Below, in pieces: positions 1,490 to 45,606 of a stretch of DNA of 64,000 bases. The notes under the pieces are model-generated. The model saw only the letters and a list, made by a program, of their open reading frames with translations. It did no database searches and was not told the origin of the DNA. A program made the position numbers and the translations under genes. The DNA is from an uncultured Cohaesibacter sp. Lineage in GTDB: Bacteria; Pseudomonadota; Alphaproteobacteria; Rhizobiales; Cohaesibacteraceae. The first letter of the stretch is position 1, and each line of letters opens with the position of its first letter. The DNA lies in contig NZ_OY781114.1 in assembly GCF_963676485.1 (NCBI RefSeq), positions 1,696,501-1,760,500 on the forward strand. Reading direction: 5' to 3'.

Positions 1490-1595
1490 GTCCGCAAACC
1501 CGGCAATGGCACGCTCAAAATGCTGCACTTCGTTCGAACGGCAGGAATAGGGAATCTGGCTTTTGGGATGTAGTCTCTGCCGAGTGCCCGCTTCG
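1490..1595 (-). repeat. Family 1 intergenic repeat, right module, reverse
   Basis: Read on the minus strand this stretch contains GGCTACATCCCAAAAGCC and then a CATTCGAA box and a GCAGCATTTT box. It closely resembles the forward copy at 7631-7740, including the unusual middle segment. Only the right module is present. It abuts the full copy that follows. Confidence 0.75.
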
Positions 1596-1775
1596 TCCGC
1601 TCATCCGTCTTGTGACCAAGGAAATTGCTGCACCTAGTTTGAATGGCAACAATGGGGAAGCGGATTTGCAGCAGATCTCGATAGCTGAACGCCCGCTTTG
1701 GGCCGCGATTGCTGATCTCGAGCCAAGATGCCTGTTGTCACCTGGCGATGCGTTGCACCAGACCGGATTGAGCCC
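1595..1775 (-). repeat. Family 1 intergenic repeat, full length, reverse
   Basis: This is a complete reverse copy: right module (GTCCGC edge, CCCCATTGTT segment, AGATCTGCTGCAAATCCGC) followed by GCAATCGCGGCCC and the left module ending at GGGCTC near 1775. The left module is the variant with TGACAACAGGCATCTTGGC, shared with the copies at 21.6 kb and 29.4 kb. Confidence 0.8.
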
Positions 1776-1833
1776 AAACACGTCATTGAAAATGTTGGGG
1801 GCCGTTCTCGGGTGTGAAAGAGGTGCGGAATTA

Positions 1834-1912
1834 GCGGCCCTGAGCCGACATTCGACAGTCCTCATCAGGGCAAATCCACTTCCTCATTGCTGTCATTCGA
1901 ACGAGGTTCAGC
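1834..1912 (+). repeat. Family 1 intergenic repeat, right module, overlapping an araC-type gene end
   Basis: The copy runs from GCGGCCC through CCGACATTCGACAG and CATTGCTGTCATTCGAACGAGG. It ends where the usual GCAGCATTTT would be. The stop codon of the AraC-family gene (TCA on this strand, 1908-1910) lies inside the last bases, so gene end and repeat end are fused. Confidence 0.7.
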
Positions 1913-2819
1913 GAGCGCGAACAGTTGTGGTTAAGAGTCGGATGTCTCTGCCAGGAGGAGCATCAAATAGGCGCCGGTATTCGCGGGTGAACTGAGGAAT
2001 ACTGGCGTAGCCGACAGCATTGGCTGCCTGAGCGATCTGGGTTCCTTCGCTAAGCATGAGCCTGCGGGCCTCGATCAGGCGAAGCTGTTTCTGGAACTGA
2101 AGTGGCGAAAGGGATGTGATGGCGCGGAAGTGTCTGTGAAACACGGGTTCGCTCATCCCGGCGGCGGCGGCCAACTCTTCCACCCGGATCTTGCGGGCAT
2201 AATCTCGCCTCAGGATGTCAACAGCGCGTCCGATCCGGCTTGCATGACTGTTCGGTGCTCCGAGCGCAGCGATGGCTGGGCCGTGGATACCCATCAGCAG
2301 CCAGTAGTGCAGCTCTCGCAACAGGCCCTCACCAAGCACCGACAGCGCATCGGGCTGATCCAGCAGCCGCACGAGTCGAAGCGCCGCATCGACTACCTCG
2401 GCAGCGATCGGCTCCACCCTTACTGTCTGCGCCTCGTCATGCCGCTGCGGGATTGCCGGGCTTAACTCTTCCAGTATTGCAGGGTCAATTTCCAGGACGA
2501 GAGCATAATAGGGTACCGCAATGCTGGCGCGAGTGATCTGGCTGACCGTCGGGACATCGGCCGAGACCACCATCGCTTCCCCTGGCGTGTATTCGAAGCT
2601 TGTCCCAAGTGTGCTTACACGTTTCCTGCCTTGCAGGAGCATGGCGATCACGGGCTTCTGAACATCAACTGTCAGCTCGCCCGGGCGCAGGGCGCGCACC
2701 ACCGTCAGGCCACGTACCGGAGTTGATACCACACCATCAAATCCAGCATTGGCCTCAGCGAACCTGCGGCAGGATTCCAGCAAATGAGCAAGCTTGTGAT
2801 CGGTTTGGGCAATATCCAT
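1908..2819 (-). CDS. AraC family transcriptional regulator
   Basis: This is a cytoplasmic DNA-binding regulator of 303 residues. Residues 25-180 match the AraC N-terminal ligand-sensing domain seen in regulators of oxidoreductase genes (VIAMLLQGRKRV, EYTPGEAMVVSADVP). Residues 200-295 form the paired helix-turn-helix domain, with IRVEELAAAAGMSEPVFHR and the second-helix signature IAQAANAVGYASIPQFTREY. The start is the ATG of MDIAQTDHK at 2819. The longer open frame upstream would run into the divergent SDR gene and is not family-like. It is divergent from the SDR gene at 2958, its most likely target, with 138 bp between the starts. The stop codon lies within a family 1 repeat. Confidence 0.88.
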   Translation of the reverse strand: MDIAQTDHKLAHLLESCRRFAEANAGFDGVVSTPVRGLTVVRALRPGELTVDVQKPVIAMLLQGRKRVSTLGTSFEYTPGEAMVVSADVPTVSQITRASIAVPYYALVLEIDPAILEELSPAIPQRHDEAQTVRVEPIAAEVVDAALRLVRLLDQPDALSVLGEGLLRELHYWLLMGIHGPAIAALGAPNSHASRIGRAVDILRRDYARKIRVEELAAAAGMSEPVFHRHFRAITSLSPLQFQKQLRLIEARRLMLSEGTQIAQAANAVGYASIPQFTREYRRLFDAPPGRDIRLLTTTVRAR

Positions 2820-2957
2820 GGAGTGGATATTGGATGTTTTCGCGGCTATTGGGAAGGAGAAAACAGAAACAGGCAAAAGATCGCGAGTTTTAGGCAACTT
2901 CGCGTACGGGAGAACGACTATATCCGATGGCACCACCAAACTTGAAAGGATACTCCC

Positions 2958-3713
2958 ATGAGCAAGATCGCTCTCGTCACCGGCGCCAATCGTGGCCTTG
3001 GCCGCATCACCGCTCTCGCCATTGCCAAAAGCGGCGGCGATGTCATCGTCACCTATCGCTCGAACGCCATGCAGGCAGAAGAGGTTGCTGCCGAGATACG
3101 CGCAATGGGGCGCTTGGCGGTGGCGCTGCCCCTCGACGTAGCGGACACAGCAAGTTTCCCCGACTTTGCGAGAACCCTGCGTGCCGAACTTGGGAAAGTT
3201 TGGGGCCGCGACACCTTCGATCATCTCGTCAACAATGCCGGACATGGTGAGTTCGCCATGATCGAGGAAACCAGCGAAGCCCAGTTTGATGGGCTGTTTC
3301 GGGTCCATGTGAAAGGGGTGTTCTTCCTGGCCCAGGCCCTTCTGCCGCTTTTGGCGGACCAAGGTCGGATCGTGAACTTCTCATCTGGATTGACTCGCAT
3401 TTCGTTCCCTGGCTTCGCGGCCTATTCCGCGGCGAAAGCGGCAGTCGAAGTGCTGACGGTCTATATGGCGCGGGAATTCGGGGGGCGCGGCATCACAGTA
3501 AACACAGTGGCGCCCGGTGCGATCGAGACCGATTTCGGTGGTGGGCTGGTCCGCGACAATGCCGAGGTGAACGCGCAGTTTGCGGGCATGACGGCGCTTG
3601 GACGCGTTGGCCTTCCTGACGATATAGGCCCGATGGTCGCTAGCTTGCTGCACGACGACAATCGCTGGGTCACTGCTCAGCGCATTGAAGTTTCGGGTGG
3701 CCAGTCAATCTGA
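2958..3713 (+). CDS. SDR family NAD(P)-dependent oxidoreductase
   Basis: A classical short-chain dehydrogenase/reductase of 251 residues, the usual family length. The nucleotide-binding motif TGANRGLG is at residues 8-15, the NNAG motif is near residue 92, and the catalytic Ser-Tyr-Lys set is visible at S142/S143, Y156 and K160 (AAYSAAK). The C-terminal VSGGQSI closes the Rossmann fold as expected. The substrate cannot be told from sequence. An ATG preceded by a purine-rich stretch (AAAGGATACTCCC) supports the start. It is divergent from the AraC-type regulator at 1908-2819, which probably controls it, and is followed by a family 1 right module. Confidence 0.9.
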   Translation: MSKIALVTGANRGLGRITALAIAKSGGDVIVTYRSNAMQAEEVAAEIRAMGRLAVALPLDVADTASFPDFARTLRAELGKVWGRDTFDHLVNNAGHGEFAMIEETSEAQFDGLFRVHVKGVFFLAQALLPLLADQGRIVNFSSGLTRISFPGFAAYSAAKAAVEVLTVYMAREFGGRGITVNTVAPGAIETDFGGGLVRDNAEVNAQFAGMTALGRVGLPDDIGPMVASLLHDDNRWVTAQRIEVSGGQSI

Positions 3714-3869
3714 CCCTGGATCACGAGTGACGCGTTGGTTCATCTGGCGCGTCGCCTGCAGCCTAGCCAATCTTGCCGTTAACGGCCGAGCTCCTAGATT
3801 GATCGCCATTTTTTGGCCCGAACCAGACGTGGGCGCCGCGTCAGAATTTGATGACAGTCCAGCGGCATA

Positions 3870-3993
3870 GATCTTTGCATTCGCGGCCCAATCCTAACTT
3901 TCGCCGGGGACGACAGCCCAAAAGCCTGCTTCCACATTGCCAACGTTCGACCGAGGTGCAGTATTTTCATGACCCCGGAGACAGGTCAGCGGA
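3870..3993 (+). repeat. Family 1 intergenic repeat, right module, forward
   Basis: A degenerate copy: TTCGCGGCCC, then CCAAAAGCCTGCTTCC, CATTGCCAACGTTCGACCGAGG and GCAGTATTTTCA. It separates the SDR gene from the Lrp-type regulator and is the only recognisable content of the 3714-4019 gap. Confidence 0.65.
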
Positions 3994-4019
3994 TACTTTT
4001 GACATTCACTATGCCACTG

Positions 4020-4514
4020 TCAGACAGTTGCACTCTTCTCTTCGTCAATTAGGTCAAGGGTTTCCGAGAGATCATTCCGAAAGACGCTTTCAAAGACAAT
4101 TGATGTTTCGATGCGGCCAATCTCTTTTCGTGATGAAAACTGTTCAACCACCAATCCATGTAGGTGGGTGGTATCTTTGGTGACAACCTCCACGACCGCA
4201 TCAAATCGGCCACTGATCATCCATCCAGCGAGAACCTCTGGAATCATCAAAACTTCCCTGAGGAACTGATCTAGATCAATCTTTTTGTGCTCCGCCATCT
4301 GAATGAACAACAGCGCTTTCAGGGACAGGCCGAGATGCTCCAAGCGAATGTTTGCATGCGCACCGGCTACAAAATCGCTTTCCTGAAGTCGTTTCAACCG
4401 CTCGTGGACACTTGATGCTGCCAAACCGACTTCATATGCGAGCTCTTTATTGGTCATCCGCACATTCTTCGACAGAAGTGCCAAAATCCGTCGATCCGTT
4501 CGGTCAATACCCAT
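4020..4514 (-). CDS. Lrp/AsnC family transcriptional regulator
   Basis: A 164-residue regulator of the feast/famine type. The N-terminal winged helix-turn-helix (IDRTDRRILALLSKNVRMTN, then VGLAASSVHERLKRLQESD) spans residues 3-48. The rest is the RAM-type ligand-binding domain (MIPEVLAGWMISGRFDAVVE). The ATG at 4514 is chosen because a GGAAG ribosome binding site lies about 6 bases upstream; an upstream GTG at 4559 would add 15 unlikely residues. It is divergent from the DUF2000 gene starting at 4695, which it probably regulates. Confidence 0.88.
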   Translation of the reverse strand: MGIDRTDRRILALLSKNVRMTNKELAYEVGLAASSVHERLKRLQESDFVAGAHANIRLEHLGLSLKALLFIQMAEHKKIDLDQFLREVLMIPEVLAGWMISGRFDAVVEVVTKDTTHLHGLVVEQFSSRKEIGRIETSIVFESVFRNDLSETLDLIDEEKSATV

Positions 4515-4694
4515 TGCTGCTTCCAAATTCCGAAAAAATTTCGTTAGATACCTAATCACACGAATGCTATACGAAATAAAGCATAAACGACAGAATATAC
4601 GTCACAAATTGCGAATATTTCCCGATGATTCATAGATGCTCGTCTTGAATCTCTACGCTTGCGCACGGCCAGCAAAAGGAAGGTGAGATCACAT

Positions 4695-5102
4695 ATGTTC
4701 AACACCAAAATCGCCATCATTGTTCGGGATGACCTTGCCACCTGGCAGAAGCTCAATGTCACCGCCTTCTTGATGAGTGGTATCACCGGCGCCAATCCTG
4801 GCATCATCGGATCCCCTTACAGAGACAGTGAGAACAACCTTCACTCGCCGATGTGTGTTCAACCCGTTATCGTTCTTTCGGCTGATGCCAGTGCCCTTCT
4901 CAACATTCGTAGGCGAGCGAGGGAAAGGGGCGTGGAAACCGTAGCCTATATCGAGGAGATGTTTGCAACGGGGCACGACGCCGCCAATCGCGCCGTTTTC
5001 GCCGAGCATGGCCCGGACGAGCTCAACACAGTTGGCATCGCCTTGAGAGCAGATAAAAAAGTCGCCGACAAGATCACCAAAGGGGCAAGGATGCACAGCT
5101 AG
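4695..5102 (+). CDS. DUF2000 family protein
   Basis: A 135-residue protein matching the DUF2000 family, which has a fold related to peptidyl-tRNA hydrolase II; its biochemical role is not established. Typical features are the N-terminal KIAIIVRDDLATWQKLNVTA, the central GIIGSPYRD segment with PVIVLSAD, and a C-terminal helix ending VADKITKGARMHS. A GGAAGGTGAG ribosome binding site ahead of the ATG at 4695 fixes the start. DUF2000 genes are commonly found beside Lrp/AsnC regulators, and here the regulator is directly divergent. Confidence 0.85.
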   Translation: MFNTKIAIIVRDDLATWQKLNVTAFLMSGITGANPGIIGSPYRDSENNLHSPMCVQPVIVLSADASALLNIRRRARERGVETVAYIEEMFATGHDAANRAVFAEHGPDELNTVGIALRADKKVADKITKGARMHS

Positions 5103-5249
5103 TTTTGGGCCTCAGGGCAACACTCAGAGCTCAATGGGCGAAGAATGCGATTTTTTGCGCAAAGCTGAAGCCTCGCGAGAATCCAGACCATCAATCTCCG
5201 CCTTGGCCTCCGAGCCCTCCAGTTGGCATATGGCGAATTAAATCCGCCA

Positions 5250-5335
5250 TCTAGGCTCGTGATTGGTATTCGCGGCCCCGACCCGACATTTGTCGATGGC
5301 AAGCGTCGCCGGACTGCTGCCTTTGTGGAATTCAA
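5250..5335 (+). repeat. Family 1 intergenic repeat, degenerate, forward
   Basis: Matches GGCTCGTGATTGG, ATTCGCGGCCC, CCCGACATTTGTCGATGG and CAAGCGTCGCCGGACTGC. The last part resembles the copy at 29576-29688. The 3' box is lost where it meets the end of the DUF1203 gene. Confidence 0.55.
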
Positions 5336-5802
5336 TCAACCCTATGAACAGACGCCGCAAAGCAACCCGGCTTCGCATTGTGAAGGTGAATATAGGCGAT
5401 CTCAGGCTTGTCAAAGGCTTTAGAGATTACAGACGACAACGTATTGCCTGGGACGACATCGGCATCAACCATCATGTGATTGCCGTCGAAAAGACGAATG
5501 GAAATCAACCGCGATCGAATGACTTCTGGAATGTCGTTCATTGCAATCTCAGCTTGTTTGGCATGTTCCCTTACAAAGATCGCATGGGTCGCTTGATACG
5601 GACTTTTCGCTGGCTGATGCACGTAGTTCAGAAGAATGACGGTTTCCCCGACCTCGGCATCCACCATACTTACGCGGCATGGTGTTCCGGGCTTTGCAGT
5701 CACGACTTGCCGACATGCCTTGCGTTCCGCGAGTTCTGCGTCAGTCAAACCAAAAAGGTCGGCGAATTCGGTTTCTGACAGGGCTTTGATTTGGAAGTTC
5801 AT
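5332..5802 (-). CDS. DUF1203 family protein
   Basis: A 156-residue soluble protein of the DUF1203 family, whose function is unknown. It starts with MNFQIKALSETEFADLF and has the conserved block CRVSMVDAEVGETVILLNY, the SPYQATHAIFVRE motif, and a C-terminal IAYIHLHNAKPGCFAA motif. Length is typical. The start ATG at 5802 is preceded by a GGAGCG-like site (AGGAGCGCTCAAC). It is a single-gene unit between two family 1 repeats, with no obvious partner or regulator. Confidence 0.88.
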   Translation of the reverse strand: MNFQIKALSETEFADLFGLTDAELAERKACRQVVTAKPGTPCRVSMVDAEVGETVILLNYVHQPAKSPYQATHAIFVREHAKQAEIAMNDIPEVIRSRLISIRLFDGNHMMVDADVVPGNTLSSVISKAFDKPEIAYIHLHNAKPGCFAASVHRVD

Positions 5803-5920
5803 GTTGAGCGCTCCTATTGCATATCAAACGCAATACCAAATCCAAGCCAGTCGGGACGACCCGATACTTGCGCTATCGTTCGTTTGCAGTCGTTGATACC
5901 AGGCGGCAACATCGTTCACT

Positions 5921-6040
5921 ATGGGCTCCAAGCGGTCGAGTGCGATGCATCATCATGCGAAAACGCTCATCCAGGTTTGTGATTTGCAATCGCGGCCCTT
6001 AGTTGCCATTGAATGAAGCGGCATTGAATGGCAACTTTGC
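5921..6040 (+). repeat. Family 1 intergenic repeat, left module plus truncated right, forward
   Basis: A clean left module: GGGCTCCAAGCGGTCGAG, GCATCATCATGCGAAAAC, GATTTGCAATCGCGGCCC. The right module is cut short and replaced by a short tandem of CATTGAATGAAGCGG and CATTGAATGGCAAC. Confidence 0.75.
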
Positions 6041-6160
6041 GCCCCCTAAGCGGACCTTGGCGCAGCACCGGGAGAAGTCAGCAATGCGCGACATTCCCTC
6101 GAAGAACGGACGAGAGAAAGTCGAGCTTTTTTATTCGAAGCAGTATTCCAATACGCCAGA

Positions 6161-7594: not shown

Positions 7595-7630
7595 GCAAAA
7601 TAGGCTTCTCGTTGGCTCATCAAAAAATTT

Positions 7631-7740
7631 TTGCAATCGCGGCCCAAAGCGGGCGTTCGACAGAGGCTACATCCCAAAAGCCCACTTCCCCATTGCTGTC
7701 ATTCGAATGAAGCGCAGCATTCTCAGCTATCAGACGACGA
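7631..7740 (+). repeat. Family 1 intergenic repeat, right module, forward
   Basis: GCAATCGCGGCCC, GCGGGCGTTCGACAGAGG, CACTTCCCCATTGCTGTC, ATTCGAATGAAGCGCAGC. It is the forward counterpart of the reverse copy at 1490-1595. Confidence 0.85.
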
Positions 7741-7862: not shown

Positions 7863-8852
<990 letters not shown>

Positions 8853-8942
8853 CCTTTTTCCTTTCATATGGTTGTGCGTCTTCTGGAAAGATGTCATTTT
8901 CCGATGGAGAGCAGTAGAAGAAAAAATGGGTACTTATTTTCC

Positions 8943-9854
8943 ATGAACGGAAATCATGACGTTGGCGGTAGTCTCGTCTGGGACGATCTGCGCATATTCT
9001 TGGCCATCAGCCGCGAAGGCACCTTGAGTGGTGCAGCCAAACGTCTGCGGCTTGGCTTGGCCACCGTATCGCGACGCATGGAGCGGCTGGAAGCGGCGGT
9101 CGGGCAGCCGCTCTTCTTGCGGCAACAGACCGGATATAGCTTGACTGAAGATGGCGCCGCGATGGTCGAACGCGCCGAGGAGATGGAAGCTGCTGCACGT
9201 TCCCTGACCTCCAGGATGGCGGAAAGCCCAGAGGTCTCGGGGATCGTCCGCTTGGCGACAGCAGAGAACCTTGCCACCGGGTTGCTCCTACCCAACTTGC
9301 GAGGTTTCCGAGCCAAGTATCCACGACTGACAATTGACATGGTGACGGATATCGCCACGGTGAACCTGCACCGACGGGATGCCGACCTCGCGCTACGCAT
9401 GGTCAAGCCAGACCGAGGGCATGTGTCGCTTCAGCGCTTGGGCACGTTGGGCTACGGCCTATATGCCTCGGACAGCTATCTGGCGCAAAGGGTTAGCAAC
9501 GTGGACGCTGCCGATTTTGACGCGGATGACTTTATCACCTGGGGCGAGGCGCAGGCCCATCTGCCCGCTGCACAATGGGTGGAAAGCCGCCTGCAAGGGC
9601 GTGTCCCGGCCTTGAGCACGTCAAGCGTTGCGACGCAGCTTGCGGCCTGCAGCGCCGGCGTGGGCTTTGCGATCCTGCCGCATTTCCTCGCAAGATCAAA
9701 AGGGCTGATCTGTTTGGATGGTGAGCTTGGCATCGATCAGACAATCTGGCTCGTCACCCAGTCAGATTTGGTACAGTCACGCCGCATCCAAGCCGTCTCA
9801 GAATTCTGCCGGAATATCATCCGACAGTATCGTGATGAGCTTGCAAATGCGTGA
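8943..9854 (+). CDS. LysR family transcriptional regulator
   Basis: A 303-residue LysR-type regulator. The N-terminal helix-turn-helix spans about residues 14-70 (WDDLRIFLAISREGTLSGAA, LGLATVSRRMERLEAAVG), followed by a substrate-binding domain (SGIVRLATAENLATGLLLPN). The WDDLR start and VTDIATVNLHRRDADLALRM block place it in the subgroup that regulates neighbouring oxidoreductases. The start at 8943 is chosen by family alignment; an in-frame ATG at 8904 is possible and neither has a strong ribosome binding site. It is divergent from the aldo/keto reductase gene. Confidence 0.88.
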   Translation: MNGNHDVGGSLVWDDLRIFLAISREGTLSGAAKRLRLGLATVSRRMERLEAAVGQPLFLRQQTGYSLTEDGAAMVERAEEMEAAARSLTSRMAESPEVSGIVRLATAENLATGLLLPNLRGFRAKYPRLTIDMVTDIATVNLHRRDADLALRMVKPDRGHVSLQRLGTLGYGLYASDSYLAQRVSNVDAADFDADDFITWGEAQAHLPAAQWVESRLQGRVPALSTSSVATQLAACSAGVGFAILPHFLARSKGLICLDGELGIDQTIWLVTQSDLVQSRRIQAVSEFCRNIIRQYRDELANA

Positions 9855-9913: not shown

Positions 9914-10080
9914 AGCTCGGAGCGGACTGGTGCACTGCATCAGCATACGAAAACGCACATCCACGTTGGTGATTTGCAATCGGGGCCCACTGCTGACATT
10001 CGGCTGTCGGCGCCTGCTGAAAGGCAGCTTCCCCAACGCAGCCGTTCGAGCACAGCGCAATATCTCGGCACTCAGGGCGA
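9914..10080 (+). repeat. Family 1 intergenic repeat, full length, forward
   Basis: Left module (GAGCTCGGAGCGGACTGG, GCATACGAAAACGCACATCC, GATTTGCAATCGGGGCCC) and right module (GACATTCGGCTGTCGG, GCAGCTTCCCCAACGCAGCC, GTTCGAGCACAGCGCAATAT), moderately diverged. Confidence 0.75.
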
Positions 10081-10759: not shown

Positions 10760-10872
10760 AACGGCCCTAACCCGACATTCGCAGGTTGCCACAAGCCGCT
10801 AGGCAGCTTCCGCATTCCTGCCGTTCGAGCAAGCCGCAGCATTTTTAGTGGCTAGGTGACGGGTGGCGGACC
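10760..10872 (+). repeat. Family 1 intergenic repeat, right module, forward
   Basis: ACGGCCCTAACCCGACATTC, CAGCTTCCGCATTCCTGCC, GTTCGAGCAAGCCGCAGC, ATTTTTAGTGGCTAGGTGAC. The CTAGGTGAC right edge is the variant also found at 25.9, 29.3 and 29.7 kb. Confidence 0.75.
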
Positions 10873-10938
10873 TTCCGGTCATTCGCCGCACGAGCATGAG
10901 AAACGCAGCGTCCGACAGCAAGGCGACGGGGCCGCCGC

Positions 10939-11382
10939 TCACATAGGTGACTGATGCCGCAAATGAATGAGGGGATAAGGCCTTCCCTGCCCATCATGGG
11001 AAGACGTTCCCGTGCGGACGAAACCGACATGCTCATAGAACGCGAGCGCCTCTGGGTTTTGCTCATTCACATCGGTTGTCAGCTCAGGGTGGGCCGCGAT
11101 GGCTCGCGATATGAAGGCTTTGCCGATCCCTTTTCCATGTTGATCCGGGTCGATAAACAGTGCCTCCAGATGACCGTCATGCAGAAACATGAACCCCTGC
11201 GGCGTGCCTGTGGCATCGACTGCAAGTTGCAGGCTCACCTGTGGGAAGAACTCCATAAGCTCGGCCTCAATGGCCGACTTGTCGACGGGCGCAAGGAAGT
11301 GATGAGTGGCGTCGACCGCCCGACGCCATATCTCCATGACGCGCAGCAAGTCCTTATCTGTTGAAGGTCTGAAAGTAAGCAT
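10939..11382 (-). CDS. GNAT family N-acetyltransferase
   Basis: A 147-residue acetyltransferase of the GNAT superfamily, using acetyl-CoA; the substrate is unknown. It resembles the YjaB-like subgroup (LTFRPSTDKDLLRVMEIWRR, VDATHHFLAP). The acetyl-CoA pyrophosphate loop is DQHGKGIGKAF, and the typical NPEALAFYEHVGF motif near the C-terminus is present. The ATG at 11382 fits the family start; an upstream TTG at 11397 is less likely. It lies alone between two family 1 right modules. Confidence 0.85.
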   Translation of the reverse strand: MLTFRPSTDKDLLRVMEIWRRAVDATHHFLAPVDKSAIEAELMEFFPQVSLQLAVDATGTPQGFMFLHDGHLEALFIDPDQHGKGIGKAFISRAIAAHPELTTDVNEQNPEALAFYEHVGFVRTGTSSHDGQGRPYPLIHLRHQSPM

Positions 11383-11447
11383 GGTACTCGTTAACAAAAC
11401 TGTCCCACTGTCCGCAATGGCACTGAAGCAGATTTAAATCCAGATCC

Positions 11448-11559
11448 CTGCCCTAACCGGTCATTCAGCTATCGAGATCTGCTGCAAATCCGCTTCCCCA
11501 TTGCTGCCATTCGAATGAGGTGCAGCATTTTCAGCAAACAGATGACGGATGGGCCGACG
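11448..11559 (+). repeat. Family 1 intergenic repeat, right module, forward
   Basis: CCCTAACCGGTCATTCAG, TATCGAGATCTGCTGCAAAT, CGCTTCCCCATTGCTGCC, ATTCGAATGAGGTGCAGC. It is almost identical to the copy at 40810-40919, with only a handful of differences over about 110 bp, although they lie 29 kb apart. Confidence 0.85.
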
Positions 11560-13688: not shown

Positions 13689-13862
13689 AGCTCAATCCGG
13701 ACTGGTGCACTGCATCAATGATTTAAAACGTGATTTAAAACGGCCATTCAGGCCGTGATTTGCAATGGCGGCCCATAGCTGCCGGTCGTCAATTATAAAT
13801 TGCAGCAAGGCCGCCGCCTCATTGCTGTCATTCAAACAAAGTGCAGCATTCTCACAAACTCA
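13689..13862 (+). repeat. Family 1 intergenic repeat, full length, forward (left edge of GNAT duplication)
   Basis: Left module (GGACTGGTGCACTGCATCA, then a short duplication of GTGATTTAAAACG) followed by GATTTGCAATGGCGGCCC and the right module (GCCGGTCGTCAATTATAAAT, CCTCATTGCTGTCATTCAAA, GTGCAGCATTCTCA). The right module is duplicated in inverted orientation near 23.2 kb. Confidence 0.8.
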
Positions 13863-13936
13863 GAGGCAGGTTGGTTGGACTTGGCTGTCGTTGGATGCCC
13901 CTGTCGAAATGGCCATTTGCACGAATTTCAACGCAA

Positions 13937-14407
13937 CTACTTTTTTTGAGGCACAACGTCGAACCGTTTGCAGATTAAACCTTCTGGCGTTCGATATGTT
14001 CGAAACCCCATAGCTTCATAGTAGGCTAGTGCTTCCAAGTTGTCTGCCGCAATGGTCGCATCAATCTGTGCAATTGAAGCCTCTCTGGCTAAGCTGCTGC
14101 TAACTTCAAAAAGCGCGCGTCCCACACCTCGGCGAGCAGAGGACGGTCGAATGTGCGTACCGATGATGCCCCAGCCTGTTTCAACCCCGTAGGGATTGCC
14201 AGCTACGGCACGTATCAGAGACTGAAAGCCAAGTACGGCACCATTTTCCTCGACCACCGTACAGCAAATCTTACTCGGACCTTCAATATAGTGCGCGCGT
14301 ACGAAACTCTCGTCGTCAGGGCTCTTTCGCTTTCCAGCCGCTGTCAGTTCTTTGAGAAATGCGCTCATTTGTTCGACGTCGCCAACCTCAGCAGTTCTAG
14401 TTTTCAC
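13937..14407 (-). CDS. GNAT family N-acetyltransferase, copy 1 of inverted duplicate
   Basis: A 156-residue GNAT acetyltransferase if the GTG at 14407 is used; a TTG at 14422 would add five residues. It has the RTAEVGDVEQMSAFLKEL start, the acetyl-CoA loop RPSSARRGVGRALF and the NLEALAYYEAMGFR motif, typical of phosphinothricin-acetyltransferase-like proteins. The substrate is unknown. It is identical to the gene at 22654-23124 except for two residues in the last eight (DVVPQKK here, GVVSQKK there). The gene and its flanking family 1 repeats are duplicated in opposite orientation. Confidence 0.88.
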   Translation of the reverse strand: MKTRTAEVGDVEQMSAFLKELTAAGKRKSPDDESFVRAHYIEGPSKICCTVVEENGAVLGFQSLIRAVAGNPYGVETGWGIIGTHIRPSSARRGVGRALFEVSSSLAREASIAQIDATIAADNLEALAYYEAMGFRTYRTPEGLICKRFDVVPQKK

Positions 14408-20640: not shown

Positions 20641-20641
20641 A

Positions 20642-33490: not shown

Positions 33491-33608
33491 AGCAATCGCG
33501 GACGAAGCTGACATTCGTCGATGAAAATGAGCAGCAAGCCCGCTTCTCCATTCCTGGCATTCGATAGAAGTGCAGCATTTTCAGTAATCTGATGACGGAT
33601 GGGCGGAC
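33491..33608 (+). repeat. Family 1 intergenic repeat, right module, forward
   Basis: GCAATCGCGGACGAAGCTG, ACATTCGTCGATGAAAATGA, GCCCGCTTCTCCATTCCTGG, CATTCGATAGAAGTGCAGC and GATGACGGATGGGCGGAC. In this copy GAAAATG and CATTTTC can pair to close a long hairpin. Confidence 0.8.
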
Positions 33609-37626: not shown

Positions 37627-37683
37627 ATGGATTTGTTGTAAAAACTTATTGAGCCGGTATTGCCATGCTGCGTCTCTCTGGGA

Positions 37684-37780
37684 TGTTAAAATGCTGCAAT
37701 TCGCACGAATGGTAGGGATCTGGAAGCAGCACCGCGGTATTTAAAATCTGGCGACAGCCGCATTGGGTCGGATTGCCGGC
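37684..37780 (-). repeat. Family 1 intergenic repeat, right module, reverse, degenerate
   Basis: AAAATGCTGCAATTCGCACG, AATGGTAGGGATCTGGAAGC and GACAGCCGCATTGGGTCGGA. It lies 50 bp from a forward left module and marks another orientation switch. Confidence 0.6.
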
Positions 37781-37829: not shown

Positions 37830-37904
37830 CGGGCTCGAACCAGCCTAACGCGGTGCATCATCATGCGAAAACGCTCTTCAGGGGCCGGGATTAGAAATCG
37901 CGGC
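37830..37904 (+). repeat. Family 1 intergenic repeat, left module, forward, interrupted by MITE
   Basis: GGGCTCGAACCAGCCTAACG, GGTGCATCATCATGCGAAAA, and GAAATCGCGGCC, where the MITE begins. The right module resumes at 39424 after the MITE and the IS inside it. Confidence 0.85.
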
Positions 37905-38065
37905 CGATTCCGTTGAAAAAGTCGATGGTCATTACTTCACGTCAGATTTTGTGGAACTTTATTCCCGTGTTCTTGAAAATCTGGATTTCAATCCGCTTCA
38001 GAGTGATTGTGAGAAATCGAATTCTAGGATCTCGGCAAGAAATTTGAGTGCGGCCCTTTTTCAAC
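37901..38065. mobile_element. MITE-like element, copy 2, left part (split by IS110)
   Basis: It starts with GGCCGATTCCGTTGAAAAAG and matches copy 1 (23288-23462) along its length (CGTGTTCTTGAAAATCTGGA, ATCGAATTCTAGGATCTCGG). It breaks off at TTTTTCAAC. The missing end (ACGGAATCGGCC) is found at 39416-39427. Confidence 0.85.
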
Positions 38066-39415
38066 ATGGCGTAATTCCTAGTTCGTGCAAGTCGGACAGC
38101 CAAGTGCAGCCTGCTAAAATGCAATTTGGCAATCGAACAGGAGGGAACCGATGACGACCTATGTTGGACTGGATGTATCCTTGAAAGAAACATCTATCTG
38201 TATCGTTGACGAGAATGGCATGCGGATCAAGGAAGGCATTGTCCCCTCTGATCCTGACGAGATCGCCGGATATCTGGACAAGCATGCACCATCGGTTCAC
38301 CGCGTCGGTTTGGAATCTGGCCCAACGTCCAGTTGGCTTTGGCGTGAACTGAAGGCAAGGCATCTGCCGGTGATCTGCATTGATGCTCGCCATGCCAGTG
38401 CTGCTCTGTCGATGCAGATCAACAAATCGGACCGCAATGACGCCTTGGGTCTCGCCCGTATCATGCAGACTGGCTGGTTTCGCCAGGTTCAGATCAAAAG
38501 CGAAGAAAGCCACCGCATTCGTTCCCTCTTGAATGCACGCAGTCTTCTGGTTCAGATGCGCCGAGATATCGAGAACCAGATACGCGGTCTGTTCAAGTCC
38601 TTTGGCCTCGTGATTGGGCGAGCCAATGGTGGTGTCTTTTTGAAACGGGCACAAGATGTCGTCCGACAGGCTCCGGAACTTGCCGATATTGTATCACCGT
38701 TGCTAACCGCTCGCGAAGACATTGATCAGCAGCGCCTGTGCCTGGAAAACAAGATCAAACGCCTTGCTCGCTCCAATGAGCAATCCCGGGCTTTCATGAC
38801 TGTACCCGGCGTTGGCCCCATGACCGCGCTTGCCTATCTGTCATGCATTGATGATCCAACCCGCTTTACACGATCCCGGACGGTTGGTGCCTATATCGGC
38901 CTGACACCAAGGCGGTATGCATCCGGAGAAATGGATTGGTCCGGTCGCATATCCAAATGTGGGGATGCAATGCTGCGCAGCTATTTGTTCGAGGCGGCCA
39001 ATGTTGTGCTGACCCGCACTAAACACACCTGTTCGCTAAAGGAATGGGGCATGGAAATTGCTGGCCGATCTGGTGGAAAAAAGGCCAGGGTCGCAATAGC
39101 TAGAAAATTGGCCACCATTCTTCACCGAATGTGGCGTGATGGAACATCTTTTAAATGGGAAACCGCTTGATTGGGAATTACTGAGGCAATACGAGATCGC
39201 CCGGATATAGGGTGAAGAATGTCCCTGCCGGGACGAATGGCGGTGATGAGATCGACCAATTCCGTGCGAAGAGAAAGTAATCTTAAACGCGGTTTCAACA
39301 TTGATCTATCAACGCTCTCTTGCGCCACAATGCAGAGGCAATACACCTACTGCGAAGAGAACGATGGAACCGGCAGGAACAAAATACAACTCAGAGCATC
39401 TTGCGGAATTAGAGA
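38065..39415 (+). mobile_element. IS110/IS1111-family insertion sequence, complete (~1.35 kb)
   Basis: Its ends are deduced from the reconstructed target: the MITE sequence TTTTTCAAC stops at 38065 and resumes as AACGGAATCGGCC at 39415-39427. The element carries one transposase gene (38151-39170), about 85 bp of non-coding sequence on the left and about 245 bp on the right. GTAATTCC near the left end (38070) and GGAATTAC (about 39175) form a subterminal inverted match. Long non-coding sequence after the transposase is the IS1111-type layout. A GTCCC-TGCC-GGGAC hairpin at 39221-39234 may belong to its guide RNA. Confidence 0.75.
38151..39170 (+). CDS. IS110 family transposase (DEDD)
   Basis: A 339-residue transposase with the N-terminal RuvC-like DEDD domain (VGLDVSLKETSICIVDENG, VGLESGPTSSWLW, KSDRNDALGLARIMQTGWF) and the C-terminal transposase_20 domain with the catalytic-serine region (MTVPGVGPMTALAYLSCIDD, GAYIGLTPRRYASGEMDWSG). 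The length is complete and no stop or frameshift is seen, so the element may be active. An AGGAGGGAACCG ribosome binding site precedes the ATG. Members use a structured non-coding RNA to choose donor and target DNA. Confidence 0.92.
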   Translation: MTTYVGLDVSLKETSICIVDENGMRIKEGIVPSDPDEIAGYLDKHAPSVHRVGLESGPTSSWLWRELKARHLPVICIDARHASAALSMQINKSDRNDALGLARIMQTGWFRQVQIKSEESHRIRSLLNARSLLVQMRRDIENQIRGLFKSFGLVIGRANGGVFLKRAQDVVRQAPELADIVSPLLTAREDIDQQRLCLENKIKRLARSNEQSRAFMTVPGVGPMTALAYLSCIDDPTRFTRSRTVGAYIGLTPRRYASGEMDWSGRISKCGDAMLRSYLFEAANVVLTRTKHTCSLKEWGMEIAGRSGGKKARVAIARKLATILHRMWRDGTSFKWETA

Positions 39416-39505
39416 ACGGAATCGGCCCAAAGCTGTCGTTGGCTGCGGAAATATGCCTCAATGCAGCTCCCCTATTCCTGCCATTCGCAACTAAGCGACA
39501 GTGCC
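39416..39505 (+). repeat. MITE right end plus family 1 right module, forward (continuation)
   Basis: ACGGAATCGGCC closes the MITE at 39427. It is followed directly by CAAAGCTGTCGTTGGCTGCG, GCAGCTCCCCTATTCCTGCC and ATTCGCAACTAAGCGACAG, the right module belonging to the left module at 37830-37904. Confidence 0.8.
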
Positions 39506-39572: not shown

Positions 39573-40130
39573 ATGTCCTGTATCATCGCCTTTCATGGAT
39601 CTGGTCAGACTGAAGCATCACTGGATCCATTTGTTGATGCTATTGCTCCTGGCTGTGATAGATTTTTGCCGAGAGGTGGGCTGGTCGAGAAAGACGGCTT
39701 CACTTTTTTTAGACGGGATGATGACCTTCGGATTGATCCTGAGAGTTTGCTGGAACAGGCAAGATTGTGGCTCGTTAAGCAACACCTCAGCGAGATGATG
39801 CTTGTTGGCTATTCCAGCGGTGCCATCTTTTCTGAAGCACTGCTGTCTTTTGAACCTGATCGATTTTCTGGTGCAATCCTATTGCGCCCAGAACCGATAG
39901 CAACAGATTTTCGATTTCCAGACATGGGCCGCAAGCCAATCCTTATCTTGTCCGGACAGAGAGACGAAAGGCGAACGGTCGAGGCGGCCATAATCCTTAA
40001 AGATCAACTCGCAAATGCCAATGCCCAAGTAACCTTGCATAATCTCAATGCAGGTCATGGTTGGGCGGACGATGCCGAAGACATACGCTTATCCCGTCAA
40101 TGGTTGTTGGATACTGGAATATTGGCTTAA
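39573..40130 (+). CDS. Alpha/beta hydrolase (carboxylesterase/phospholipase-like)
   Basis: A 185-residue small alpha/beta hydrolase similar to the phospholipase/carboxylesterase group. It begins with IIAFHGSGQTEASLDPF (the oxyanion HG motif). The nucleophile elbow is GYSSGA, the aspartate lies in LILSGQRDERR, and the histidine is in LNAGHGWADDAEDI. The ATG at 39573 starts the first strand. The substrate is unknown. It is a single-gene unit after the nested insertion and before a degraded family 1 fragment. Confidence 0.85.
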   Translation: MSCIIAFHGSGQTEASLDPFVDAIAPGCDRFLPRGGLVEKDGFTFFRRDDDLRIDPESLLEQARLWLVKQHLSEMMLVGYSSGAIFSEALLSFEPDRFSGAILLRPEPIATDFRFPDMGRKPILILSGQRDERRTVEAAIILKDQLANANAQVTLHNLNAGHGWADDAEDIRLSRQWLLDTGILA

Positions 40131-40140
40131 GCAAGGGACT

Positions 40141-40200
40141 TTCAGTCGCGGCCCAATGGAGACCTTCGGTACTTGAATTCGAAAATCTGAAAGCCGCCAT
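40141..40200 (+). repeat. Family 1 intergenic repeat, fragment, forward
   Basis: TTCAGTCGCGGCCC with GACCTTCGGTACTTG following. Only the central junction is recognisable. Confidence 0.45.
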
Positions 40201-40327
40201 TGGTTCAGTTCGCAACAATTCCATCGCTTGCGAGACTGCAAGCGCACAAAACAGTCATCTGATTTGTCAAATGATTGCTTCGGGCTGCTTGGGGGAGCAA
40301 GCCGCGCGTTTGAAGCAAAGTTTTTGT

Positions 40328-40714
40328 CTACTTTGGATCATCTAGCCCGTTTGTAAGCGAGATCCAAAGAACCAGTTGAGGCCCCGGTGAGTGGCGAGAG
40401 AGGTGCCCTTTGCCATGCGTATCTTCTACAAGAGCAAACTCACCGGCTTCTACTTTTCGAACATCTCCATCGCTCGTTTCATATTCTACAGAACCATTTA
40501 GTCTTACGGTTAGCTCTCGACCGGGTACCGTGTGCCAATCAACCTGATTCATTCCAGCAGGAATGCTAGTGAAGCGGACTCTATTGGCGGGATAGCTCGC
40601 AGAGACCTCAAACGGGGTCGCGGCATGATGAACCCGAACTTGGCTCGTCGGAATTTCTATCTCATCAAAATGGCTCTCTCCATCTGGAGTGGCATAAATC
40701 CGTAAGCATTTCAC
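40328..40714 (-). CDS. Cupin-like hypothetical protein
   Basis: A 128-residue soluble protein with a cupin-like pattern: LRIYATPDGESHFDEIEIP at the start, NQVDWHTVPGRELTVRLNGS, VEYETSDGDVRKVEAGEFAL, DTHGKGHLSRHSP. Histidines in the second half could bind a metal. Related small proteins are annotated as cupin-domain or hypothetical, with no assigned reaction. It is a single-gene unit between family 1 copies. Confidence 0.7.
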   Translation of the reverse strand: MKCLRIYATPDGESHFDEIEIPTSQVRVHHAATPFEVSASYPANRVRFTSIPAGMNQVDWHTVPGRELTVRLNGSVEYETSDGDVRKVEAGEFALVEDTHGKGHLSRHSPGPQLVLWISLTNGLDDPK

Positions 40715-40809
40715 TGTGGCGTCTCCATTGGCTTGGTTAATACCGATTGCTGATACGCGGCAACCCTATATCACTATTCAAAAATTTGTCCCTTTCCCCG
40801 TTCTTCAAC

Positions 40810-40919
40810 TGCCCTAACCGGTCATTCAGTTATCGAGATCTGCTGCAAATCCGCTTCCCCATTGCAGCCATTCGAATGAGGTGCAGCATTTTCAGCAAAC
40901 AGATGACGGATGGGCGGAC
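40810..40919 (+). repeat. Family 1 intergenic repeat, right module, forward
   Basis: Nearly identical to the copy at 11448-11559: CCCTAACCGGTCATTCAG, TATCGAGATCTGCTGCAAAT, ATTCGAATGAGGTGCAGC, GATGACGGATGGGCGGAC. TGCTGCA and TGCAGCA can pair to close a hairpin. Confidence 0.85.
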
Positions 40920-40986
40920 TAAGGAGACGTTGCAAAACGTACCTTTTCTGATCAAATACCAAGTGTCGAAAAGTTAGGATAAAGAT

Positions 40987-41655
40987 ATGGTTTTCTTTTG
41001 TGGTGTGACAAGTGATCAACGGTTGGGTGACCGGCCGGGGCTACGTGCAAAGTTCTATGGCGAGCCCTGGGAGGCTCCATATGAACAACACGCGACGCCT
41101 TTGTGGTCAGAAAAAATCATCTCAAGGATGGATCGCTGTATCAGGGGAGAAGTCTTGCCACGACAGGACTTTCCAGAAGCCTTTGCCGTTTATGACGAAA
41201 CCAGATTCAAGAAAATGAAATCTCTTTTTTGGGTCGCGGGCTTCCTAGCCGTGAAACAGGATTTGGCTGATATTTTCTCTCGATTCGATATGGGGCAGGG
41301 TGGACTAGTACCATTCCCGATCTACCAAGCCGATGAAACAACACTCTACCCAGGCAGCTACTATTTTCTGCATTTTGGCAACCAAAAAGATACGTTCGTG
41401 GCCGAGCAAAGCCAAAAGGTCTTCCCGTCCTATTTTGATAAGGAACGGAACCTTCAACCTTGGAAGGTTTATCCGGAAGCGGATGGTGATGTCGTCGTAA
41501 CGGTGAGGGCTGAGGAAGGACCAAACATTTGGATAGAGCCCACTGTGCCTGGCAAGCTGTTCATGAGCGATGGCTTGGCGATGGCCTTATGGGAAGCAAA
41601 GATTAAACCAAAAATTGATTGGCAGCTTACGAAATGCCGGATCGTGGATGAATAG
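40987..41655 (+). CDS. Imm11 (DUF1629)-like protein
   Basis: A 222-residue soluble protein whose layout fits the Imm11 family (DUF1629), known as immunity proteins for polymorphic toxins. Features are LFWVAGFLAVKQDLADIFSR, VPFPIYQADETTLYPGSYYF, GPNIWIEPTVPGKLFMSDGL and a final LTKCRIV. No toxin gene is visible on either side, so it would be an orphan immunity gene, a common passenger of gene-capture regions. The assignment rests on pattern alone. Confidence 0.6.
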   Translation: MVFFCGVTSDQRLGDRPGLRAKFYGEPWEAPYEQHATPLWSEKIISRMDRCIRGEVLPRQDFPEAFAVYDETRFKKMKSLFWVAGFLAVKQDLADIFSRFDMGQGGLVPFPIYQADETTLYPGSYYFLHFGNQKDTFVAEQSQKVFPSYFDKERNLQPWKVYPEADGDVVVTVRAEEGPNIWIEPTVPGKLFMSDGLAMALWEAKIKPKIDWQLTKCRIVDE

Positions 41656-41798
41656 GGGATGAGCCGATGTCTTGGTCAAATTTTTGCATCATCTCAGCTC
41701 TAGCTGCAGGCACTATTTTGATTGGTCAAGAACTCCAAAAATATTGCTGCCGCTAAGCACCTAATGCGTGTCCTCGCCATGGTTTCAACGTCTACCTT

Positions 41799-41972
41799 GG
41801 GCTCGAAGCAATCTAGTGCAGCGCATCATCATCTGAATTCGCTCATCCAGATTGGTGATTTGCAATGGCGGCCCAAAGGCGACATACTGCAACAGATAAA
41901 CCCTGTGCGTTCCCTCCCCATTGCTGTCATTCGCGCAAAGCGCAGCATTTCCTGTAGCCCTGTGACCGTTAG
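41799..41972 (+). repeat. Family 1 intergenic repeat, full length, forward
   Basis: GGGCTCGAAGCAATCTAGTG, GCATCATCATCTGAATTCGC, GATTTGCAATGGCGGCCC, CTCCCCATTGCTGTCATTCG, GCAAAGCGCAGCATTTCC. About 240 bp of unassigned sequence follow before the next gene. Confidence 0.85.
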
Positions 41973-43846: not shown

Positions 43847-44018
43847 GGCCAATTTTGTTGAGAAGTCTAGGGTCAATACTTGGCGTCCGGTTTTGTAGAT
43901 CTTAATTCCTGAGTTCTGGAAAATCCGAATTTCTATCCGTCCCAGCACTGCTACGAGAAGTCGTATTCCAAAATTTCGGCAAGAAATTTGTGACGGGCAC
44001 TTTTTCAAAGGAACGGCT
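43847..44018. mobile_element. MITE-like element, copy 3, degenerate
   Basis: CGGCCAATTTTGTTGAGAAG at the left and TTTTTCAAAGGAACGGC at the right are diverged versions of the MITE ends; inner matches include CAAAATTTCGGCAAGAAATT. It abuts the left edge of the next family 1 repeat rather than its GGCC centre. Confidence 0.65.
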
Positions 44019-44165
44019 CGGAGCGGACTTGGGCAGGGCAATAATCTGCGACGGTCACGCTGGTCCTGTTTAGCAATGGCGGCCCAAAGCCGCCGTTCGT
44101 TAGCGGATCTACGCGGCAAGCCCGCTTCCCCATTGCCGCCATTCGTTCAGTTTGCAGCATTTTGA
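44015..44165 (+). repeat. Family 1 intergenic repeat, full length, forward
   Basis: GGCTCGGAGCGGACTTGGGC, GCAATGGCGGCCC, GCCGCCGTTCGTTAGCGG, CTTCCCCATTGCCGCCATTC, GTTTGCAGCATTTTG. Confidence 0.8.
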
Positions 44166-44243
44166 TATAGGGAACTTCAGTAACGCGTACTTTCGAGACA
44201 TGCACTGCAAAATCGACAATGAGAAATTCAGCCACACCAAGTT

Positions 44244-44719: not shown

Positions 44720-44720
44720 A

Positions 44721-45239
44721 ATGCAACCCAAAAGGAGATCACCATTACTGCTTCTGCTTTGTTTGGCAGCATTTCTCATTTTCCGCCAAATACTTATCTA
44801 TAACGATTTCTGTACTGACCAGAGAAGATGGTTACAAGATCAAGAATTTTTCGAGGCTGCCATGCGATCTGTCTACGAACACTACCCTCCCCAAAGATTT
44901 CGCATTCCGGGATTTTTCTCGAAAAAAATTGTTAACCACGTCGAGTATCAGAGTTATGAGGATTTTGTTCAGAAAAATCTAAATTGTTGTGAGATGTCTC
45001 CAACCGGTTGGAAAGGTATATCAATTGGTATTTTTCGTAGATTGACTGGCTATTCCGTTGGCTTTGTAAAAGTCGAATTTCGGGCTGATGCAGATGGGCT
45101 TACAGCGGAAGACCGGGCTTGGATTTTGGAAAATAGAGGCCCCTCTGGATTTAAGTCAGAGCAATTCCGCAATTTGAGTTCAAAGAATTTGGCTTTCGTC
45201 CCCATGACTAACTGCGGCAAAATTTGGCGTGGTTATTAA
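44721..45239 (+). CDS. Membrane-anchored hypothetical protein
   Basis: A 172-residue protein with one N-terminal membrane segment (LLLLLCLAAFLIFRQILIY) and an extracytoplasmic or periplasmic domain containing two adjacent cysteines (KNLNCCEMSPTGWKG). The family is not named. The ATG lies one base after the end of the frameshifted upstream gene, with AGGAAAAAATAA as a weak ribosome binding site, so the two formed one transcript. Composition is AT-rich. Confidence 0.65.
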   Translation: MQPKRRSPLLLLLCLAAFLIFRQILIYNDFCTDQRRWLQDQEFFEAAMRSVYEHYPPQRFRIPGFFSKKIVNHVEYQSYEDFVQKNLNCCEMSPTGWKGISIGIFRRLTGYSVGFVKVEFRADADGLTAEDRAWILENRGPSGFKSEQFRNLSSKNLAFVPMTNCGKIWRGY

Positions 45240-45244
45240 AAACG

Positions 45245-45353
45245 AAATTTTTAGGCTCTGATGTTGTTGACGCCCGCCGCTGGCTCTGATGTGCGAAGGT
45301 GGGATTTTTTGTTGATCCTTTAGGAGGCGCCTACAGCATCAGAGCCTAAATTT
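45245..45353. mobile_element. Small inverted-repeat element (~109 bp)
   Basis: AAATTTTTAGGCTCTGATG at the left and CATCAGAGCCTAAATTT at the right are near-perfect inverted ends. GGCTCTGATG occurs a second time inside (about 45282). It lacks coding capacity and is probably a miniature or internally deleted insertion sequence, lying just after the preceding gene's stop. Confidence 0.65.
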
Positions 45354-45381
45354 CATGCGCCGATGTACTCTTCTGGCAAAG

Positions 45382-45606
45382 AGGGCTCCCTACCGTCTGG
45401 AGCACCGCGTCATCATCGAAAACACTCATCCTAGCTTGCGTTTAGCAATCGCGGCCCAATGCGGCCATTCGCGGTCCGATTGATGCTGTGTCGCAACATC
45501 CCACTAGCCGACATTCGGCGGCGAGCATACGCGCAATGCGGCTTCCCCATGGCAGCCGTTCGAACGAAGCGCTGCATTTCTTCGGCCTGACGACGGGCGG
45601 GCGGCC
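45382..45606 (+). repeat. Family 1 intergenic repeat, full length with spacer, forward (last copy)
   Basis: Left module (GAGGGCTCCCTACCGTCTGG, GCGTCATCATCGAAAACACT, TTTAGCAATCGCGGCCC), about 30 bp of spacer, then right module (TAGCCGACATTCGGCGG, GGCTTCCCCATGGCAGCC, GTTCGAACGAAGCGCTGC). No further copy was found to the right. Confidence 0.8.

Follow-up and report, generated by a model that had tools for sequence, protein, structure and literature searches.

Integrons are the best-known means by which bacteria stockpile and exchange individual genes, and clusters of attC sites lacking integron-integrases (CALINs) persist as arrays without a recombinase of their own. The dif site is 28 bp long. 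Rhizobiales genomes also carry RIME/ABC and Bru-RS elements, which are passive, mosaic repeats interspersed between genes. Here, a repeat of about 170 bp was analyzed that lies between the gene units of a 64,000-nucleotide stretch (the window) of an uncultured Cohaesibacter sp. (genome G000, assembly GCF_963676485.1, contig NZ_OY781114.1, positions 1,696,501 to 1,760,500). Comparison of sequences made it highly probable that this repeat is the attachment site of a site-specific cassette system, integron-like without being an integron, with double-stranded sites and a small tyrosine recombinase as the likely catalyst. Exact boundaries, re-use of sites, permuted cassette order, presence and absence of cassettes, recurrence in several species and a core adjacent to recombinase genes were all seen in the sequences compared.

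A first-pass annotation of the window had described about 30 copies between 1.5 and 45.6 kb, with a left and a right module occurring together or alone, and none from 48.4 to 64 kb. This description was borne out by a hidden Markov model (HMM) of the site, iterated with nhmmer from the four full copies named in that annotation. The model returned 37 rows in the window, of which 33 reached at least 41 bits, all inside 1500-45596; the remaining four scored 4-9 bits, and one of them (52982) was the sole row past 45.6 kb. Both full and half copies were present (HMM positions 1-170, about 59-170 and 1-89). Comparison of one copy with the whole genome by BLAST gave E-values down to 8e-59 for other copies. 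Across the 5.08-Mb genome, a sequence-only model (E ≤ 1e-3) located at least 86 places, of which the window accounts for 33, with peaks of 40 at 1645-1743 kb (window included) and 14 at 3008-3044 kb; these totals are lower bounds, since 150 of 1213 candidates were scored. On contig C1, 76 of 85 copies lay within 5 kb of another copy, where random placement gave 13.5 on average and at most 28 over 1000 trials; the copies occupied 24 of 244 bins of 20 kb. An ordinary interspersed repeat does not fit this pattern, as the copies were clustered and the array DNA had no conserved synteny. Even spread together with synteny had been set beforehand as grounds for giving up a cassette role, and neither was seen: the array DNA tested (1831-21700) was matched in relatives only in pieces. 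The suggested likeness to RIME/ABC and Bru-RS elements is not supported; the repeat is a joint between cassettes, unlike those passive repeats.

The distribution in relatives was surveyed in 41 genomes (own genome and 40 relatives). Between 1 and 49 matches at E ≤ 1e-3 were found in 16 of the 17 relatives of the same genus, the genome without matches (G005) being 64% complete, and outside the genus 3 of 23 relatives had one match each. An exact-pattern scan of genome contigs yielded four stretches, two in Cohaesibacter marisflavi and two in a Paracoccaceae metagenome-assembled genome. Site scores and spacing of the C. marisflavi locus L012 were identical to those of L059 from relative G010, which makes Cohaesibacter the probable genus. 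More divergent relatives of the site were found in Rhodobacterales; strict IUPAC patterns were too insensitive for these loci, so a second model (R2) was used, whose counts are lower bounds because only 10 candidates per genome were scored under strict filters. A megablast search with window positions 1-25000 against plasmids gave no match.

Alignment of 30 Cohaesibacter and Rhodobacterales sites revealed three conserved stretches, CGGCCC (the core, changed in one of the 30), GCnGnCATT and GCAGCATT. The right module extends about 100 bp from CGGCCC and consists of two direct copies of GCnGnCATTCG, about 46 bp apart in the Cohaesibacter sites, followed by GCAGCATTTT. The mosaic look of the repeat is explained by the junctions: the left module is part of one cassette, and beyond the core the right module is part of its neighbor. 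No secondary structure was found when one copy was folded (z = +0.38 as DNA, +1.45 as RNA), an alignment of 24 copies contained 0 consensus base pairs, and Rfam at the gathering threshold recognized only a tRNA in the window. The first-pass annotation had seen no attC consensus, and indeed an R-box pair, searched by consensus, was present in 0 of 39 full copies (0.44 expected). In its layout, in the size of its units and in their functions (GNAT, small regulators, DUFs), the array resembles a chromosomal integron, as would suit a degenerate CALIN whose attC sites have diverged. This reading has next to no probability given sites without fold, consensus pairs or R boxes, a recombinase that scores 24 bits against an IntI cut-off of 265, and genes that run 38 along and 47 against the site direction in the clusters of G000.

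Comparison between genomes strongly supported mobility of the units. Fourteen unit families had more than one copy (38 units in total), and units recurred in other contexts and species at 85-100% identity. Cassettes common at full length to G000 and G013 or G004 were 99.2-100% identical, and the flanking DNA of G013 and G004 was 68-83% identical to that of G000, tRNA aside. Three consecutive units (1831-6015) were 99.4% identical in G013, where the flank was 68-82% identical, again tRNA aside. The cassettes concerned, all on the plus strand, are 1836..3885 with an AraC-type regulator gene (Pfam) on the minus strand (99.2% over 2050/2050 bp), 3885..5274 with divergent AsnC regulator and DUF2000 genes (99.8% over 1390/1390 bp) and 5274..5994 with DUF1203 (100% over 721/721 bp). 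The second of these also occurs at 81% over 78% of the unit in G003 and as a 91% piece in G004. Elsewhere in the array, a cassette at 40150..40809 (+) was 99.4% identical over 660/660 bp in G004, a copy of the cassette 40809..41870 (+) in cluster N of G000 covered 92% of it at 88.7% identity, and the cassette body 7864..9854 (+; divergent aldo/keto reductase and LysR genes) was 88% identical in G006 and 84% in G008. The GNAT cassette 10763..11448 (+; junction alignment) had a 98.3% copy at G000 position 1667303 and a 95% copy in G013, and window positions 10867-11421 recurred in G006 at 96%. A block with an autotransporter gene (17210..20465, +) was 99.2% identical over 3256 bp to G000 367847-364592; its left end lay inside a site and its right end (20465) outside any site.

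In the junctions examined, unit boundaries were exact at the core. Base-level alignments of a GNAT unit (three copies) and of a second unit (three copies) showed identity of about 95-98.5% that starts at the core; to the left of the core the aligned copies were unrelated or similar only at the level of the repeat, and the left module was absent from the junctions at 23193 and 10762. The GNAT unit is present at 13770..14586 (+) and, inverted, at 22479..23291 (-), the first copy being 98.5% identical to the second and 96% to the cluster N copy over its full length. At the far end of this unit, identity continues through GCAATCGGCCC and then ends. Against clean ends, the three copies of the second unit diverge ahead of the next core. 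Endpoints were also counted for 56 blocks of at least 85% identity and at least 300 bp; seven in-gene tandem matches of one G013 locus and endpoints close to locus edges were dropped. Fifty of 108 endpoints fell in the repeat on at least one side, compared with 6.25 expected (maximum 14 over 301 randomizations), and 20 of these 50 were at HMM positions 60-79. Passive homologous recombination between 170-bp repeats might also shuffle accessory genes: the copies are roughly 60-98% alike, some common blocks span several repeats, and the other 58 of the 108 endpoints lay outside any repeat. Such shuffling is strongly disfavored and very improbable, as the in-repeat endpoints concentrate in one short segment and the examined junctions coincide exactly with CGGCCC, the DNA on one side being unrelated; among them are junctions at secretion gene ends and left flanks that have no homology to the repeat.

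The rearrangements were followed further on Rhodobacterales plasmids, where two cassettes were compared in seven loci. Cassette X (hydrolase and recombinase, 1.78 kb) and cassette Y (metallophosphoesterase, sugar ABC transporter and LysR, 6.65 kb) were carried in opposite order by two plasmids of Phaeobacter inhibens P92 (P92a and P92b), between which they were 99.5% and 99.3% identical, respectively. Within P. inhibens, the order X-Y was found in P92a and P54 and Y-X in P92b, X occurred alone in M623, and Y alone in M634 and M625. Left flanks that end alike carried X-Y (P54), X (M623) or Y (M634); the common flank extended over 1.5 kb between M623 and M634, and its last ~450 bp were found in P54. 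The 3' end of a type IV secretion system (T4SS) gene, 77% identical between the two plasmids, was followed by X-Y in P92a and by Y in M625. In Tritonibacter L129, X was found in another context with an inserted IS110. The junctions of X and Y read CGGCCC in 17 of 17 cases, L129 included, and the right neighbors of the seven loci were all different, yet right-module-like by eye. Directly after the stop codon of the T4SS gene, CGGCCC was present in seven of nine plasmids, two of the seven being identical there; L122 reads CGGTCC and L119 has none. Moreover, an McrBC cassette recurred in two Paracoccus plasmid contexts with 99.94% identity over the 3090 bp from one core to the next; the second context was also present in a third plasmid. 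When the DNA around the McrBC cassette was used as query, no plasmid turned up that had both flanks but lacked the cassette, and a megablast query with the TM1040 array brought up no further plasmid with the greater part of it. The genes annotated near sites on L083, L084, L086 and L124 include McrBC, a viperin-type gene, nrdHIEF and mercury reductase.

It is barely conceivable that CGGCCC is a target duplication and that transposons, or elements driven by IS110, make up the units. Copies of the six bases stand at both unit ends, a unit with an IS110 gene ends at CGGCC in three places, and two of 40 scanned array open reading frames (ORFs) are transposases. However, no transposase family was recognized in the other 38, and terminal inverted repeats beyond those of shuffled sequences were found in 0 of 10 units (lowest count 40 of 300). 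Adjacent units, furthermore, have a single core in common, and the orders Y-X and X-Y fit two-cassette circles.

The absence of an integrase noted in the first-pass annotation held for the window, where no PF00589 match was obtained, but not beyond it: small tyrosine recombinases of about 210 residues adjoin repeats in other clusters and in relatives. In G000, PF00589 matched 221- and 227-residue frames in two other repeat clusters, and further PF00589 genes are present. The genes of relatives were 80-96% identical in the fuller matches, and 11 of 15 recombinase loci of the genus had a site in their ~1.5-kb flanks. PF00589 was the only Pfam match in four recombinases, and two that were scanned scored far under the XerC, XerD and IntI cut-offs (best TIGR02249, 24 versus 265 bits). 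In an alignment of 19 proteins, R73, K101, R173, H196 and Y205 were invariant and H170 nearly so, being absent from L084; read against XerC-like structures, these residues would be the catalytic ones. A TnpR-like identity was ruled out, since TnpR proteins carry DUF3701 (PMC8138268) and the four scanned proteins match PF00589 only.

The association of recombinase and core was closest in the plasmid loci. Recombinase genes were 73-82% identical in the best 30 plasmid matches, which we take to be Rhodobacterales, as taxonomy lines confirm for the regions fetched. In the Rhodobacterales plasmid loci a hairpin follows within about 40 bp of the recombinase stop codon, with a 3' arm ending in CGGCCC in 10 of 11 loci and in CGGCCT in L084. 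After the hairpin most of the 11 loci carry a right-module-like stretch, the site model scores the 3' recombinase site at E ≤ 0.05 in 8 of 11, and the next annotated gene is different in all 11. In G262 and G292, found independently of any site association, a site lies within 20 bp of the 3' end of the recombinase gene, which in G292 contains two stops. Among 384 genomes of the class (own genome excluded), sites at E ≤ 1e-7 were present in 5 of 12 recombinase-positive versus 4 of 372 negative genomes (Fisher p = 1.4e-6), a test that ignores shared ancestry and uses R2, built partly from Rhodobacterales sites.

Further observations were made on these loci. The L084 recombinase (14959-15588) that lacks the near-invariant H170 stands beside the core CGGCCT, perhaps as a decayed pair. 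Recombinases of about 51-65% identity (L063, L096-L099, L103, L104 and others) are followed by other post-stop hairpins, e.g., GGGCAGAG..CTCTGCC, which are perhaps cores of their own. ORFs downstream of the Cohaesibacter recombinase (in L055, L056, L058 and L059; L024:2684-3007) resemble, by eye, a Phd/YefM-type antitoxin and a Doc/Fic-like protein, and perhaps stabilize the array.

Several findings pull against the cassette interpretation with the small recombinase as its catalyst, in addition to the endpoints outside repeats and the lack of a recombinase gene in the window. An exact GGCCC lies no more than 14 bp from the predicted core in 108 of 173 Cohaesibacter copies and is missing there from the other 65, no inverted arms around the core stood out on visual inspection, and a left module that is conserved in many Cohaesibacter cassettes lacks an explanation. 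Several Cohaesibacter recombinase genes are partial or broken by stops. Core and right module stand directly 3' of the recombinase in only three of the nine Cohaesibacter loci inspected there (L060, L061 and L062, the gene of L062 being broken); L055 and L056 carry just the core, L057-L059 show a degenerate hairpin and L068 has an altered 3' end. Strong sites are missing from 7 of the 12 recombinase-positive class genomes, whose recombinases are more distant (54-64%). Finally, G002, G003, G004, G007, G008, G014 and G016, all well-completed genomes, carry 8-49 sites and no recombinase at 1e-20; their arrays thus either persist without the enzyme or are acted on by another one. Catalysis by XerC/XerD or an unrelated integrase, as for the pdif modules of Acinetobacter, would accommodate these seven genomes, the XerC/XerA/XerD-like character of the nearest solved structures and the further PF00589 genes of the genome. 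We regard this as unlikely: the core stands at the small recombinase's own 3' end in nearly all Rhodobacterales loci, the enzyme travels as part of cassette X and co-occurs with the sites, array sites are co-oriented (106 of 118 units), and the core and arms are presumably unlike dif.

The preferred interpretation, a dedicated cassette system, would work as follows. Each cassette would start at CGGCCC with the ~100-bp right module. Its cargo would be a single gene or a small operon, facing either way and probably expressed from a promoter of its own, and a left part specific to the cassette would lead up to the next CGGCCC. Cleavage and rejoining by the recombinase of ~210 residues most likely take place on double-stranded DNA, inside the six bases of the core. 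In Phaeobacter, the recombinase is itself cassette-borne, with its 3' hairpin ending in the same core. One or several cassettes would be excised as circular intermediates and inserted at CGGCCC elsewhere, for instance next to another cassette, at the 3' end of the recombinase gene itself or where the T4SS operon of a conjugative plasmid ends; the orders Y-X and X-Y are as two-cassette circles would give. On balance, we also lean toward the broader view that this is a second, independently evolved, integron-like capture platform, spread through marine Alphaproteobacteria on conjugative plasmids and using double-stranded sites and a tyrosine recombinase reduced almost to its catalytic domain, with subfamily-specific cores in the 3' arm of the recombinase hairpin. 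If so, related recombinases with other hairpins would define further, as yet unseen, cassette families.

The HMM placed the sites of the window as follows. A right module only (1501..1594) and a full site (1605..1774) stand on the minus strand. On the plus strand follow a right module at 1827..1912, which is the left end of the block common to the window and G013, a full site at 3815..3984, a partial one at 5234..5321, a site at 5924..6067, a right module at 7629..7739, a site at 9915..10065, right modules at 10762..10862 (left side unrelated to the repeat) and 11445..11548, full sites at 13690..13868 and 14516..14684, and sites at 15365..15500 and 17153..17300. The next group is on the minus strand, with a site at 21541..21685, a full site at 22380..22545, a right module at 23193..23294 (left side unrelated), a left module at 24691..24776, a right module at 25891..25990, a site at 28225..28359 and the top-scoring copy, full, at 29348..29517. 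Orientation switches to plus with a right module at 29570..29678, a partial site at 31763..31844 and a right module with changed core at 33491..33598. After a right module on the minus strand (37679..37777), the remaining copies are on the plus strand: left module and core at 37832..37911, a right module at 39421..39496 at the end of an IS110-carrying unit, a site at 40128..40236, a right module at 40811..40909, a full site at 41800..41967, sites at 44015..44167 and 45384..45517, and the last copy, a right module, at 45505..45595. The sites starting at 10762, 13690, 14516, 22380 and 23193 were also covered by junction alignments. Head-to-head site pairs about 53-55 bp apart were observed at 1605-1912, 29348-29678 and 37679-37911, where the orientation of the array flips.

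Units of 250-6000 bp between copies of at least 20 bits in the fetched Cohaesibacter clusters had a median length of 1389 bp (118 units), those between same-orientation copies being the 106 mentioned above. Genes were called with a finder trained on the fetched genome stretches, and Pfam was run on 40 array ORFs. The units consisted of one gene or a few, in many cases a regulator and its target in divergent orientation, such as LysR with aldo/keto reductase, EamA and TauE, AsnC with DUF2000, XRE-cupin with AzlC, or a weakly MarR-like protein with a short-chain dehydrogenase/reductase. TetR with DUF6622 and several GNAT genes were also found, and an APH-like kinase, DUF1203 and the autotransporter were further cargo. 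The two transposases among the scanned ORFs are at 35304-36341 (rve) and 38151-39170 (IS110); the rve-type gene adjoins an XRE-cupin regulator ORF inside the array (35304-37289). The unit with the IS110 transposase (37901..39424, +) has CGGCC as its right end here and in clusters N and O of G000. Insertion of IS110 within the repeat at positions 72-80 was considered and rejected, as the right end of the unit coincides with the core. In Tritonibacter L129, an insertion with an IS110 gene (1560-2910) splits cassette X about 58 bp into the right module, and IS110 elements may target these sites.

The border between the array and the conserved flank is a tRNA-Ser(GGA) gene (48325..48414, minus strand). 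In genus DNA searches, which scored part of the candidates only, DNA from about the tRNA-Ser (48325) to the window end was matched in 18 of 18 genomes, own included; among the matches listed, it formed one block of ~15.7-15.9 kb in G003, G002 and G010 and pieces elsewhere. Many flank matches start within 3 bp of the tRNA 3' end, and that of G003 extends 280 bp further. Array DNA (1831-21700) was matched in 14 of 18 genomes, own included, only as scattered pieces, several of them cassette-sized. The array is an island beside the tRNA-Ser 3' end. About 300 bp adjoining the tRNA-Ser (48017-48324) recur at several other places in relatives, and a GmrSD-type restriction endonuclease gene (45700-47769) lies between the last site and the tRNA-Ser.

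The first-pass annotation had compared the layout to a gene-cassette array and guessed at an undescribed repeat-based capture or shuffling system, and both ideas are supported by clustered copies and by mobile units with exact ends at the core. Literature searches covering freely accessible papers recognized no description of this system, and a prior description in subscription papers is possible. The shuffling of accessory genes in marine Alphaproteobacteria, including McrBC defense, metal and transport genes on conjugative plasmids, would be accounted for by a separate system that has unfolded sites, an enzyme of ~210 residues and probably self-expressed genes, and that takes up operons reaching at least 6.6 kb. 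Tools based on IntI and attC are expected to miss it, and Phaeobacter strains allow its direct testing.

In comparison with known systems, the system described here shares with integrons and CALINs a tyrosine recombinase with an adjacent attachment site, the occurrence of arrays that lack the recombinase, short and mostly one-gene units, co-oriented sites, unrelated cargo, and discrete cassettes exchanged across species. Unlike in integrons, the recombinase scores far under the IntI model and has little beyond the catalytic domain, the sites have neither fold nor R boxes, cassettes are bounded by a CGGCCC core that lies inside the site, the recombinase is in some cases cassette-borne too, its site stands at the 3' end of the gene, and the genes are found in both orientations, whereas integron genes are mostly promoterless and co-oriented. 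By the low IntI score, the absence of fold and R boxes and the lack of a gene orientation bias, it does not belong to the integrons. Unlike RIME/ABC and Bru-RS elements, the repeat joins mobile cassettes, is clustered and has a defined core. The short recombinase, in which no arm-binding domain was recognized, resembles TnpR and the simple tyrosine recombinases of Smyshlyaev et al. (2021; PMC8138268). Finally, in the partial descriptions available, the XerC/XerD pdif modules of Acinetobacter plasmids likewise consist of genes or operons between short double-stranded sites, and their movement from plasmid to plasmid is ascribed to a tyrosine recombinase; by these descriptions, the system presented here differs in a dedicated recombinase that travels with the cassettes and in long, co-oriented CGGCCC sites with arm-like repeats.

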